Below are positions 4,454-62,706 of a stretch of DNA of 64,000 nucleotides, piece by piece. The stretch spans positions 1 through 64,000 of the forward strand of contig JANPZV010000001.1 of the NCBI GenBank assembly GCA_024707365.1. Direction: 5' to 3'. Position 1 is the stretch's first letter, and every line of letters starts with the position of its first letter. The notes below the pieces were generated by a model. The model did no database searches, was not told the origin of the DNA, and saw only the letters and a program-made list of their open reading frames with translations. Source of the DNA: Terricaulis sp. GTDB lineage: Bacteria > Pseudomonadota > Alphaproteobacteria > Caulobacterales > Aquidulcibacteraceae. The position numbers and the translations under genes are program-made.

Positions 4454-4603
4454 CTTTCCTCCCCCTCCCCTTGAGGGGAGGGGGTTGGGGGGCGGGGTGA
4501 ACCACCGGCGTATGAAGGGCAGGCGTCATATCAAAACAGCTAAAATTTCAGACATCGCGCGTCACCCCGCCTTCGCCCTCCCCTCAAGGGGAGGGGGTGA
4601 AAG
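4454..4603. repeat. Imperfect inverted-repeat (MITE/REP-like) element between nusB and thiL
   Basis: CTTTCctCCCCCTCCCCTTGAGGGGAGGGGG...GGCGGGGTGA - about 60 nt - TCACCCCGCC...CCCTCCCCTCAAGGGGAGGGGGTGAAAG. Confidence 0.7.
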
Positions 4604-44672: not shown

Positions 44673-44840
44673 CTAAAGCAACGGACTTTAAATTCGCCTC
44701 AGTTCGATGGCGGGCGCGGCGCGAATTTAAAGTCCATAAGTTGCTTTAGAAAACTTTGAATCTAAAGCGTCTTTGAGGACTTAAATGCGACACGGCTATT
44801 GATCCATCGTGTGGGTCGCATTTAAGTCCCGACGCTTTAG
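44673..44840. repeat. Copy A of double-hairpin intergenic repeat
   Basis: Hairpin 1: CTAAAGCAAC-GGACTTTAAATTCGC / GCGAATTTAAAGTCC-ataa-GTTGCTTTAG. Hairpin 2: CTAAAGCGTC-tttga-GGACTTAAATGCGAC / GTCGCATTTAAGTCC-c-GACGCTTTAG. GAATC lies between them at 44758-44762. Confidence 0.9.
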
Positions 44841-52273: not shown

Positions 52274-52849
52274 ATGCGCCGCCTCGCCGCCCCGGTTTTC
52301 GCAGCATTTTTCCTAAGCCTCGCCGGGGGCTGCGCGAGTTCGGCGCCGGAGCGTTCGCCGGCGCTCGATGCTCCGGCGCGCACCGCCTGGATCGTGAACC
52401 GTCAAGGCGGCGCAATCGGCCAGGCCCAGTTCATCGAGGCCGCCTCTGGCGTCTTGATTCGACTAGAATTTTCGCCAGGCGCGCTTGAGCCGGGCTGGCA
52501 TGGCCTGCACCTGCACGCGCGCGGCGATTGCAGCGATTTCGCCGCCGGCTTCCAGGCCTCGGGCGGGCATTTGGGCATGCGAGAAGGCGTGGCGCACGGC
52601 TTGCGCAACCCCGAAGGCCCCGAGGCGGGCGATCTGCCAAACATTTTCGCCGGGCCCGGCCCGTTCGGGGCGGAGCTGTTCAGCCCTTATGTCACACTGC
52701 ACTCGGCGCCCGTCGCGGGGCGCGCGCCGCTGCTGGACGGCGATGGCGCGGCCCTGCTGATCCACGCCGGGCCGGACGATCACCTCACCCAGCCGATCGG
52801 CGGCTCTGGCGCGCGCGTCGCCTGTGCGGCGCTGACGCCGCTGCCCTAA
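52274..52849 (+). CDS. Cu/Zn superoxide dismutase-family lipoprotein; TAA stop lies in repeat copy C
   Basis: Lipobox FLSLAGGCASS; GLHLHARGDCSDFAAGFQASGGHLGM...HGLRNPEGPEAGDLPNIFAGP...DGAALLIHAGPDDHLTQPIGGSGARVACAAL. Confidence 0.85.
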   Translation: MRRLAAPVFAAFFLSLAGGCASSAPERSPALDAPARTAWIVNRQGGAIGQAQFIEAASGVLIRLEFSPGALEPGWHGLHLHARGDCSDFAAGFQASGGHLGMREGVAHGLRNPEGPEAGDLPNIFAGPGPFGAELFSPYVTLHSAPVAGRAPLLDGDGAALLIHAGPDDHLTQPIGGSGARVACAALTPLP

Positions 52850-52883
52850 AGCGTCTGAGCTTTAAAGTCCGTTGCTTTAAACG
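52846..52883. repeat. Copy C: short, internally deleted relative of the double-hairpin repeat, inverted orientation
   Basis: CTAAAGCGTCTGAGCTTTAAAGTCCGTTGCTTTAAAC; reverse complement joins the left end of hairpin 1 (TTTAAAGCAACGGACTTTAAA) to the right end of hairpin 2 (GACGCTTTAG). Confidence 0.75.
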
Positions 52884-53878
52884 CTCTCGGCCAGCTCGTC
52901 CCGAACCTGGGCGGCGATCTCATAAGCGCGCACGCGGGCGCTATGATCGTAAATGTGCGAGGCGAGGATCAGCTCATCGGCGCCGGTGCGGCGGATGAAC
53001 GCCTCGATGCTGCGCTTGACCGTGCGCGGGGAGCCGATCGCTGATGAGGCCAGCACCATTTCCAGCTGCGCGCGCTCGGTAACATTGAGCCCGCTTTCAA
53101 AATCCGCATCAGGCGGCTGCAATTTGCGCGGGACGCCCCGGCGCAAGCTCACAAACGCCTGCATCAGCGAGGTGGAGAGCAAGCGCCCCTCCTCATCGCT
53201 CGGCGCGGCGAAAATATTGAAGCCAAGCATCACGTACGGCTCTTTCAGGGTTTCAGAAGGCCGGAACGAGCCGCGATAGACGGCCAGCGCCTCCATCATC
53301 TGCGCCGGCGCGAAATGCGAAGCGAAGGCGAACGGCAAGCCAAGATAGGCCGCGAGCTGCGCGCCAAAGGTGGACGAGCCAAGAATCCAGAGCGGCACAT
53401 TGCTGCCCTCCCCCGGTATGGCGCGCACCGCCTGGTGGTGCTCGCTTGGGCCAAGCAGCGCTTGCAGTTCGATCACGTCCTGCGGGAAGCGATCTTCGCC
53501 GCCGATCAGCGTGCGCCGCAGCGCTTGCGCCACCGCGCGATCCCCGCCCGGCGCGCGGCCAAGGCCAAGATCGATGCGGCCCGGATAAAGCGCTTCCAGC
53601 GTGCCGAATTGCTCGGCGATCACGATCGGCGCGTGATTGGGCAGCATGATCCCGCCCGCGCCAACGCGGATCGTCTTGGTGGCCGCCGCCGCGTTCATGA
53701 TCGAAAGCGCGGTGGCGGAGCTGGCGATGCCCGGCATGGCGTGATGCTCAGCCAGCCAGAAGCGCTTGTAGCCCAGGCGCTCGGCGTGCTGGGCGAGATC
53801 GCGGCTATTGGCCAGCGATTGCGCCACATCCCCATCTTCGGTGATGGGCGCAAGGTCGAGAACGGAAAACGGGATCAT
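52877..53878 (-). CDS. LLM-class (luciferase-like) flavin-dependent monooxygenase
   Basis: [83 protein letters not shown]. Confidence 0.92.
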
Positions 53879-60455: not shown

Positions 60456-62541
60456 ATGCGCCAGTTTTTCGCTGCGGCCTTCGGGGCGTTCGCACTCGCC
60501 GCCTGCGCCTCTTCGCCCGCCGCCACGGAAACCCATCGCATGACTGAAGATCCCTACCTTTGGCTGGAAGATATTGAAGGCGAGCGCGCGCTTGCCTGGG
60601 TGCGCGAGCAGAACGCGCGCTCGCTGGCGGTGCTGGAGGCCGACCCGCGCTATGCGGCGCTCTACGCCGACGCTTCGGCCATCGCCAATAATCGCGACCG
60701 GCTCCCGCTCGGCAGCGTGCGCGGCGGGCATTATTACAATTTCTGGCAGGACGCGACGCACGTGCGCGGCATTTGGCGGCGCGCGACGCTGGCCTCCTTC
60801 AGCGCCGGCGCGCCGGTTTGGGAAACGCTGCTCGACATCGACGCGCTGGCCCAGGCCGAGAACGCCAATTGGGTCTATAAGGGCGCGAACTGCCTTCAGA
60901 ACCGCTGCATGGTCGCGCTCTCCGATGGCGGGCGCGACGCCGCCGAATGGCGCGAATTCGACACCGAAACGCGCAGCTTCGTCAGCGGCGGCTTTGCCGT
61001 GCCCACAGCCAAATCATCGCTCGCCTGGGTTGATCACAACACCCTGCTCGTCGCCACCGATTGGGGCGAAGGCTCCATGACCGAGAGCGGCTACGCCTAT
61101 ATCGTCAAGCGCTGGACGCGCGGAACCCCGCTTTCAAGCTCGGTGGAGGTGCTGCGCGGCCAGCCTTCGGATGTGGCCGTGTTCGCGGGCGTGCTTGAGG
61201 ATGTGGATGGATCGCGCCTGCCGATCGCGATCGAGGCCGACACCTTCTTCGAGATCCAAAAACTGGCGCCTGGACGGCGCAGCCCCGCAGCACATCGCCC
61301 TGCCGAACAAGGCCAGCATCCAGGGGCTTTTCAGAGGCAATCTGGTGTTCACGCTGGAAGAAGCGTGGAACGGCTTGCCGCAAGGGGCGCTCGCCTCCTA
61401 TCCGCTCGCGCAAACCGGCGCGGCCGCGCCCGCGGCGCAACTGATCTTTGCGCCCAATGCGCGCCAATCGATCGAAGGCGTTTCAATCACGCGCGATGCG
61501 GTGCTTGTGGCAGGCTTTGAGAATGTGCGCGGGCGCATGCTGCGCTTTGCGTGGGAGAACGGCGCCTGGACGCAAAGCGCGCTCGATCTGCCCGCGACCG
61601 GCTCGATCGGCACGGCCGGCGCATCGCCCACCGAGAGCGCGGCGTTTGCGGTGTATGAGGATTTCATCACCCCGCCGACGCTCTTTGCGCTTGAGAACAA
61701 CGCCACCGCCGCGCGCGCCATCCGCTCGCTGCCGCCGCTGTTTGATGCGTCGTCCTACGTGACCGAGCAATTCGAGGCCGTGAGCGCCGACGGCGTGCGC
61801 GTGCCTTATTTTGTGATCCGCGCGCGCGACATTGAACTCAACGGCGAGAACCCGACGCTGCTTTACGCCTATGGCGGCTTTCAAGTGTCGATGACGCCGG
61901 GCTACAGCGCCAATGTCGGCAAGCTCTGGCTCGATCATGGCGGCGTCTATGTGATGGCCAATATTCGCGGCGGCGGTGAATTTGGCCCCGCCTGGCACCA
62001 GGCTGGGCTCAAGACCAATCGCCAAGTCATCTACGATGATTTCTACGCGGTGGAGCGCGATCTGGTTGAGCGCGGCATCACCAGCCCGCGCCGGCTCGGC
62101 ATTCAGGGCGGCTCCAATGGCGGATTGCTGATGGGCGTCATGCTCAATCAGCACCCGGAAATGATCAACGCCGCCATCGTGCAAGTGCCGCTGCTCGATA
62201 TGCTGCGCTACGATCAGCTGCTCGCCGGCGCATCATGGGTTGATGAATATGGCTCGCCCTCCGTGCCGGAAGAGCGCGCGTATCTGGAAACCATGTCGCC
62301 CTACCAGAACCTGCGCCAGCGCGATGATTTCCCGCTGCCGTTCGTGCTCACCTCCACCAAGGACGATCGCGTCCATCCTGGCCATGCCCGCAAGTATGTG
62401 GCGCGGCTGATGGAATTGGGCATGCCCGTGCTTTATTACGAGAATATCGATGGCGGCCATTCGGCGGCGGCCAATCTCAATGAAGCGGCCCGGCGCCGGG
62501 CGCTCGAATATGTCTATCTCATGCAGCGCCTGATGGATTAA
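60456..62541 (+). CDS. Prolyl oligopeptidase (S9) family lipoprotein, frameshift near 61272; TAA stop lies in repeat copy B
   Basis: ALAACASS lipobox; DPYLWLEDIEGERALAWVREQNARSL...TLLYAYGGFQVSMTPGYSANVGKLWLDHGGVYVMANIRGGGEFGPAWHQAG...RRLGIQGGSNGGLLMGVMLNQHPE...NIDGGHSAAANL. Confidence 0.93.
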
Positions 62542-62706
62542 AGCAACGGACTTTAAATTCGCCTCAGTCCGATGGCGGGCTCCGAGCGAATTTAAAGTCC
62601 ATAAGTTGCTTTAGAAACATTTGAATCTAAAGCGTCTTTGAGGACTTAAATGCGACGCGGGTGGTTGATCCATCGTTTGGGTCGCATTTAAGTCCCGACG
62701 CTTTAG
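62538..62706. repeat. Copy B of double-hairpin intergenic repeat
   Basis: Same architecture as 44673-44840, with the stem sequences conserved and the loop/linker bases differing; central GAATC at 62623-62627. Confidence 0.9.

Follow-up and report, generated by a model that had tools for sequence, protein, structure and literature searches.

The junction between a sodC-like gene and a convergent luciferase-like (LLM) monooxygenase gene in a Terricaulis sp. genome raises the question of how the stop codons of two genes read from opposite strands can both lie in the ends of one short repeat. In the window, i.e., the whole 64,000-nt stretch of DNA that we analyzed, sodC ends CCC-TAA-AGC and the monooxygenase ends GTT-TAA-AGC, with each TAA falling, as the original prediction held, in one terminus of a 37-nt sequence, hereinafter copy C (Table 1). 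Read on the minus strand (GTTTAAAGCAACGGACTTTAAAGCTCAGACGCTTTAG), copy C begins with one flanking base, followed by the first 20 nt of a longer element (TTAAAGCAACGGACTTTAAA, exact), about 5 ambiguous nt and the last 10 nt of that element (GACGCTTTAG, likewise exact). These exact matches to the ends of full copies bear out the proposal that copy C joins both element ends with the interior missing; the predicted sequence is present, but its proposed end at 52883 lies one base beyond the true end at 52882. About 17–20 bases are assignable to the left end and about 10–16 to the right, and since the wider 17 + 16 assignment has three mismatches the exact deletion junction is ambiguous. The string occurs only once in the window even when up to three mismatches are allowed, with a chance expectation of none.

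Table 1. Positions in the window of the element copies, their CcrM-type sites, and the genes and stop codons at copy C.
Feature	Position	Strand	Remarks
Copy A, full 168-bp element	44673..44840	+	arm 1 44673-44749, GANTC linker, arm 2 44762-44840
GAATC (GANTC-type CcrM site), copy A linker	44758..44762	+	linker conserved in alignment of divergent copies
Copy B, full element	62538..62706	+	left terminus bears TAA stop (62539-62541) of upstream S9 peptidase gene
GAATC (GANTC-type CcrM site), copy B linker	62623..62627	+	
Copy C, minimal derivative: TTAAAGCAACGGACTTTAAA and GACGCTTTAG termini without the interior	52846..52882	-	
TAA stop of sodC	52847..52849	+	first two bases are one of the two target TAs; third base element-derived
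TAA stop of luciferase-like monooxygenase	52877..52879	-	second target TA at 52878-52879
Cu/Zn superoxide dismutase (sodC)-like gene	52274..52849	+	Pfam PF00080 (Sod_Cu), E 3e-25
Luciferase-like (LLM) monooxygenase gene	52877..53878	-	Pfam PF00296 (Bac_luciferase), E 4e-40; orthologs within genus

The full element is a double palindrome

The full element spans 168 bp and consists of two palindromes of 77 and 79 bp, with CTAAAGC/GCTTTAG feet, on either side of a linker that bears GAATC; the arm loops of copies A and B contain no GANTC. It has terminal inverted repeats, the ends TAAAGCAACGGACTTTAAATTCGC and TAAAGCGTCGGGACTTAAATGCGAC (the latter reversed) matching each other imperfectly. A search of the 3.43-Mb genome (an assembly of eight contigs, about 90% complete) with a left-end pattern at up to three mismatches returned 57 matches as against 2 with the reversed control, and we recovered about 55 element copies, about 20 of them full, with identity to a query consensus of up to 98%, and about 30 or more partial. 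Most of the 29 congeners hold 0–8 copies, pointing to a recent lineage-specific expansion in the present genome. An order-wide search that scored two candidates per genome (299 genomes, 53 genera) gave matches in 15 genomes of three genera, all from one family. The element is also found in Rhizomicrobium and other alphaproteobacterial records (17 records matching a 19-nt pattern, two of which, from a Flavobacteriaceae and a Rhodospirillaceae MAG, match by chance). Near-identical outer arms occur in the genome named Rhizomicrobium electricum (L031, L040), outside the family that holds all the order-wide matches; these suggest horizontal spread or strong constraint.

The consensus fold of 33 divergent copies comprises 49 base pairs in two arms, both of which are kept, and compensatory changes on both sides are seen at 21 of these pairs. 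The arms fold at about -40 kcal/mol each (z about -8), and the linker GANTC (as GAATC, GATTC or GAGTC) is retained in most divergent copies and lost in some. No Rfam family covers the element, and a literature search with its sequence returned only chance matches. Other palindromes were also encountered: a divergent subfamily with arms starting YTAAAGCATCGTGCGTTAAAT or AACGTGCG is present in this genome (L095:1449-1520 and L096:160-205, and also L165, L175 and L187) and recurs in two others (G161 and G219), and positions 4456-4602 of the window hold an inverted repeat (CCTCCCCTTGAGGGGAGGGGG; 37-nt arms, 73 nt spacing) that is probably a further palindromic repeat.

Insertions at YTAR have one TA at each end

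In all of the first 37 insertions curated, a C or T precedes the left TA and a G or A follows the right one (YTAR), and no base conservation was seen outward of this motif. The right-flank R holds even at insertions without a left-hand stop that would demand it. With AAGC at its start and GCTT at its end, the element regenerates a TAA for genes on either strand when inserted into TAA or TAG.

A search of 11 junctions for empty orthologous sites recovered, for the insertion L023, a relative (G019) reading CCT-TA-GCGC (TTAG), where a single TA forms the stop common to two convergent genes; the same site in a second relative (G005) is an alignable CTAG (CC-TA-GCTC). For the insertion at a carA-like gene end (L020; gene named by eye) the corresponding sequence is GTC-TA-AGCC (CTAA; G022). 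Thus, a lone TA at the host site corresponds to two at the occupied one, and the empty orthologous site, in conjunction with the orthologous gene ends described below, supports a single ancestral TA that would now be present at both ends of the element. One TA when empty and two when occupied is the signature of IS630/Tc1-mariner elements, and other TA-duplicating enzymes are possible.

The predicted empty site of copy C is CTGCC-C-TA-A-ACGCTC, which would be the common stop of sodC and the monooxygenase. No genome with this exact empty junction was found; where relatives retain both genes, an EamA-like transporter gene separates them, and congeners in which the two genes lie close together (e.g., G006) show the order monooxygenase, EamA-like gene, convergent sodC. 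This transporter gene (e.g., L053:2555-3445; identity assigned by eye, without a family search) lies between the two in several congeners and is absent from the present genome. We considered the idea that recombination between elements flanking a lost EamA-like gene joined both gene ends and thereby yielded copy C, which would be one conceivable order of events at this junction.

The stop codons were mostly taken over rather than created

The original prediction had the repeat supplying the stop codons to its neighbors. This part has to be given up: element-free orthologs mostly end at or near there already, and only the third base of the TAA derives from the element. SodC orthologs share the same end codon at 8/8 loci (with TAG, TAA and TGA as stops), and those of the gene beside the insertion L079 (MsrA-like by eye) at 9/10; these loci are partly duplicates of one genome and hence not all independent. 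Of the four closest monooxygenase orthologs, three match the gene in length; most of the others differ from it by 1–4 residues, one having an ORF that extends 59 residues further, and the ortholog ends of the L023 genes differ by 0–4 residues. Orthologs without the element thus mostly share the end codon or stop close to it, which indicates that existing stops were mostly overwritten and that the genes were not truncated. These element-free orthologs often stop with TAA or TAG; as TGA is also among the orthologous stops, YTAR is not universal among relatives.

Insertions are concentrated at stop codons

Gene calls for a quantitative comparison came from a home-made phased Markov caller trained on this genome, which replaced an underpowered simple codon score, and each insertion site was assigned to a class once its flanks had been rejoined. 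The controls comprised every YTAR in the window and in 400 kb of stretches from the same genome, chosen to avoid known copies and containing none. The 38 insertions fall into 10 at a stop common to two convergent genes, 20 at one stop, 5 at other intergenic positions and 3 in called genes; the corresponding control counts are 13, 111, 416 and 237. Stop-codon sites hence make up 30/35 non-coding insertions (30/38 of all) as against 124/540 non-coding YTAR sites (odds ratio 20, p=7e-14), and the enrichment persists at p=3e-8 when the intergenic controls are halved, a step that allows for the caller's coding fraction of only 77%. Several alternative, related control sets all pointed the same way, and the p-values carry no correction for their use. 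The predicted placement of copies at gene ends was therefore upheld against sites with the same motif; stop overlap exceeds the random level, and copies resembling copy C are not strewn at random inside genes. Non-genic YTAR sites are themselves often stops, as the control fraction shows, which lends some initial plausibility to the view that stop overlap at this frequency would be seen with any intergenic repeat containing TAA; the same control refutes it, and with genes reading past an element terminus at only 3/38 sites, where random frames would give twice as many such genes as exact stops, the probability of mere coincidence is close to nil. At one terminus with read-through, the right end of copy A (44796-44840), the queuine tRNA-ribosyltransferase gene (TGT) misses the TAA in its frame and gains about 14 element-encoded residues before a TAG.

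Convergent junctions account for 24/35 insertions and 71/394 controls (p=8e-10), and no insertion between divergent genes was detected among the 38 with this caller; one full copy (L026), which a degenerate right end excluded from the 38, does sit between divergent genes. Exact stop coincidence is not confined to this species: it recurs in others and in a second genus, and across the other genomes at least 15 distinct copies show it at one or both ends, in counts made with the caller trained on the present genome and without a matched control. Both ends coincide with stops in L148 and L166, and TAG with CTAGCGC-type ends also occurs.

The preference for stops goes beyond target availability even between convergent genes, where stop versus non-stop sites stand at 20:3 among insertions and 67:56 among controls (OR 5.6, p=0.005), implying that survival at silent sites may not be the whole cause. 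Common stops are likewise preferred over single ones (10/30 insertions versus 13/124 controls, OR 4.3, p=0.004), and co-directional insertions are at stops in a ratio of 9:1 as compared to 55:196 in controls. All three comparisons would fit a mobilizing system that actively targets stops or gene ends, for instance via convergent transcription or translation termination, as opposed to mere survival there; yet target information past YTAR is not visible, purifying selection in promoters and operons could give much of the same bias, and the events are few, making active targeting decidedly improbable in our estimation. A transposition machinery that recognizes gene ends, specifically stops common to two convergent genes, such that the element would have evolved termini and a target rendering insertion protein-silent on both strands (a safe-harbor strategy at stop codons), also strikes us as unlikely.

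The element shrinks to its ends

That the element can shrink to its ends was borne out repeatedly. At least 15 two-ended internal-deletion derivatives of 27–117 bp were recovered, with lengths, measured TA to TA, of 27, 31, 33 (copy C), 46, 47, 52, 53, 73, 74, 81, 91, 95, 96, 104, 115 and 117 bp. Two-ended copies were selected by the presence of both ends; some element copies lack one end, so keeping both is not universal, and units of 75–77 bp with arm 1 alone are also among the curated copies. Clean deletion junctions show 0–6 nt of microhomology that differs from copy to copy, several derivatives having too many mismatches for the junction to be placed. A bare pattern of two facing termini (TAAAGC-N4-34-GCTTTA) is not enriched (9 versus 19 in the control) and includes four element-derived minis, one being copy C.

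These derivatives bear directly on the proposal that the element is a 3′-end structure selected by the host (a bidirectional terminator or mRNA-end stabilizer, perhaps with a CcrM methylation site), favored between convergent genes, with mobility being secondary. The great stability of the arms, the compensatory changes in their pairs, the retention of the linker GANTC in most divergent copies, and the bias to convergent junctions and to common beyond single stops are all compatible with it. However, the structure is gone from copy C (fold z -1.4 and -0.5, not significant; no terminator-like site was found there), which nevertheless occupies two stops, and other derivatives of comparable length do likewise; moreover, the element is absent from most congeners, and compensatory change is equally expected if movement needs palindromic DNA. 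We accordingly regard this proposal as rather unlikely.

Mode of movement and relationship to known repeats

We favor, as the probable explanation, a non-autonomous, TA-duplicating MITE with CIR-like architecture that is kept where its insertion is silent, copy C being its internally deleted remnant. Under this model, a TA-duplicating DDE enzyme would insert the element into YTAR, leaving TA at each end, and with ends of the form AAGC...GCTT a hit on a TAA or TAG stop would rewrite TAA in place for genes from either side. As TAA is rewritten on both sides, insertion into the common stop of overlapping convergent genes would be silent for both proteins. Copies at silent stop sites would then persist and those elsewhere would mostly be lost, purifying selection presumably being behind the bias. 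The palindromic arms would later delete internally, with the termini staying on as the stops of the flanking genes; copy C may be near the end of this path.

No transposase sharing the element termini was found, and searches of this assembly, about 90% complete, with PF13358 (IS630-type) and PF01609 (DDE_Tnp_1) gave no match. The genome has one Y1_Tnp gene, a RAYT-like Y1 transposase gene (L195, G000:C5:1495227) flanked by a GC-rich palindrome of the GCGGGCGAGGACGCCCGCG type; this palindrome recurs at L096:203-274 and constitutes a separate REP-like family. IS630-type, DDE_Tnp_1 and Y1 transposases are all unsupported as movers. Mobilization as a REP/BIME-type palindrome by a RAYT (Y1/HUH) transposase could draw on that single gene and on the known occurrence of GTAG REPs at gene ends with a terminus supplying the stop (PMC3733652). 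It is nonetheless very unlikely: the palindrome beside the Y1_Tnp gene differs from the element, Y1_Tnp presence does not track the element (G002, G008, G011, G018 and G024 carry the latter with no Y1_Tnp match), the GTAG foot is absent, and Y on the left and R on the right with TA at both ends is unlike one-sided Y1 target rules.

Among described repeats, REP termini are known to supply a TAG stop, and REPs prefer convergent and unidirectional gaps (PMC3733652). The element is like GTAG/CGTC REPs and BIMEs in being palindromic, lying 3′ of genes in convergent or unidirectional ORF gaps and often providing the stop with its termini (PMC3733652). It differs from GTAG/CGTC REPs in regenerating TAA at both ends via the TA at each, in having no GTAG/CGTC foot, in its arms of 77–79 bp versus a 20–40-nt palindrome, and in lacking a consistent link to a Y1 transposase. 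With the CIRs (Caulobacter CcrM-associated intergenic repeats; Chen and Shapiro 2003), as described (PMC2229807), it shares two long inverted-repeat arms with a linker, GANTC, 5′-TA termini, intergenic location and an alphaproteobacterial host. Compared with that description, the element is longer (about 168 bp versus ~110 bp) and has its GANTC in the linker, whereas that of CIRs is in or at the terminal loop of one arm (PMC2229807); a further difference is its inverted termini. MITEs of the IS630/Tc1-mariner type (e.g., RUP) are similarly small and non-coding, with imperfect TIRs, TA at both ends and a CTAG-like target, CTAG being the IS630 preference (Tenzen and Ohtsubo 1991, cited in PMC2170065). 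They differ from the element in its double-palindrome body and broader YTAR target, and no autonomous partner or IS630-type transposase was found in this genome. Finally, MITEPsy1 of Pseudomonas syringae is a small inverted-repeat element that also inserts at CTAG or YTAA (PMC3189936), but it makes a 4-nt duplication, and neither a double hairpin nor stop-codon placement is reported for it (PMC3189936).

Implications

Stop-supplying REP termini have already been published (PMC3733652), and the element is hence of a known kind in a new form. What appears to be new, on a partial coverage of the literature, is that TAA at YTAR stops is restored on either side and symmetrically with respect to strand, as documented with an empty site and controls. 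It offers a simple and checkable mechanism for repeats that lie exactly on stops, namely that a YTAR target combined with ends starting in A gives TAA on both strands. The element also makes it possible to separate the choice of target from survival in a system that has been measured against controls and has an empty orthologous site. More generally, short, unrecognizable sequences at gene ends can be relics of mobile elements.
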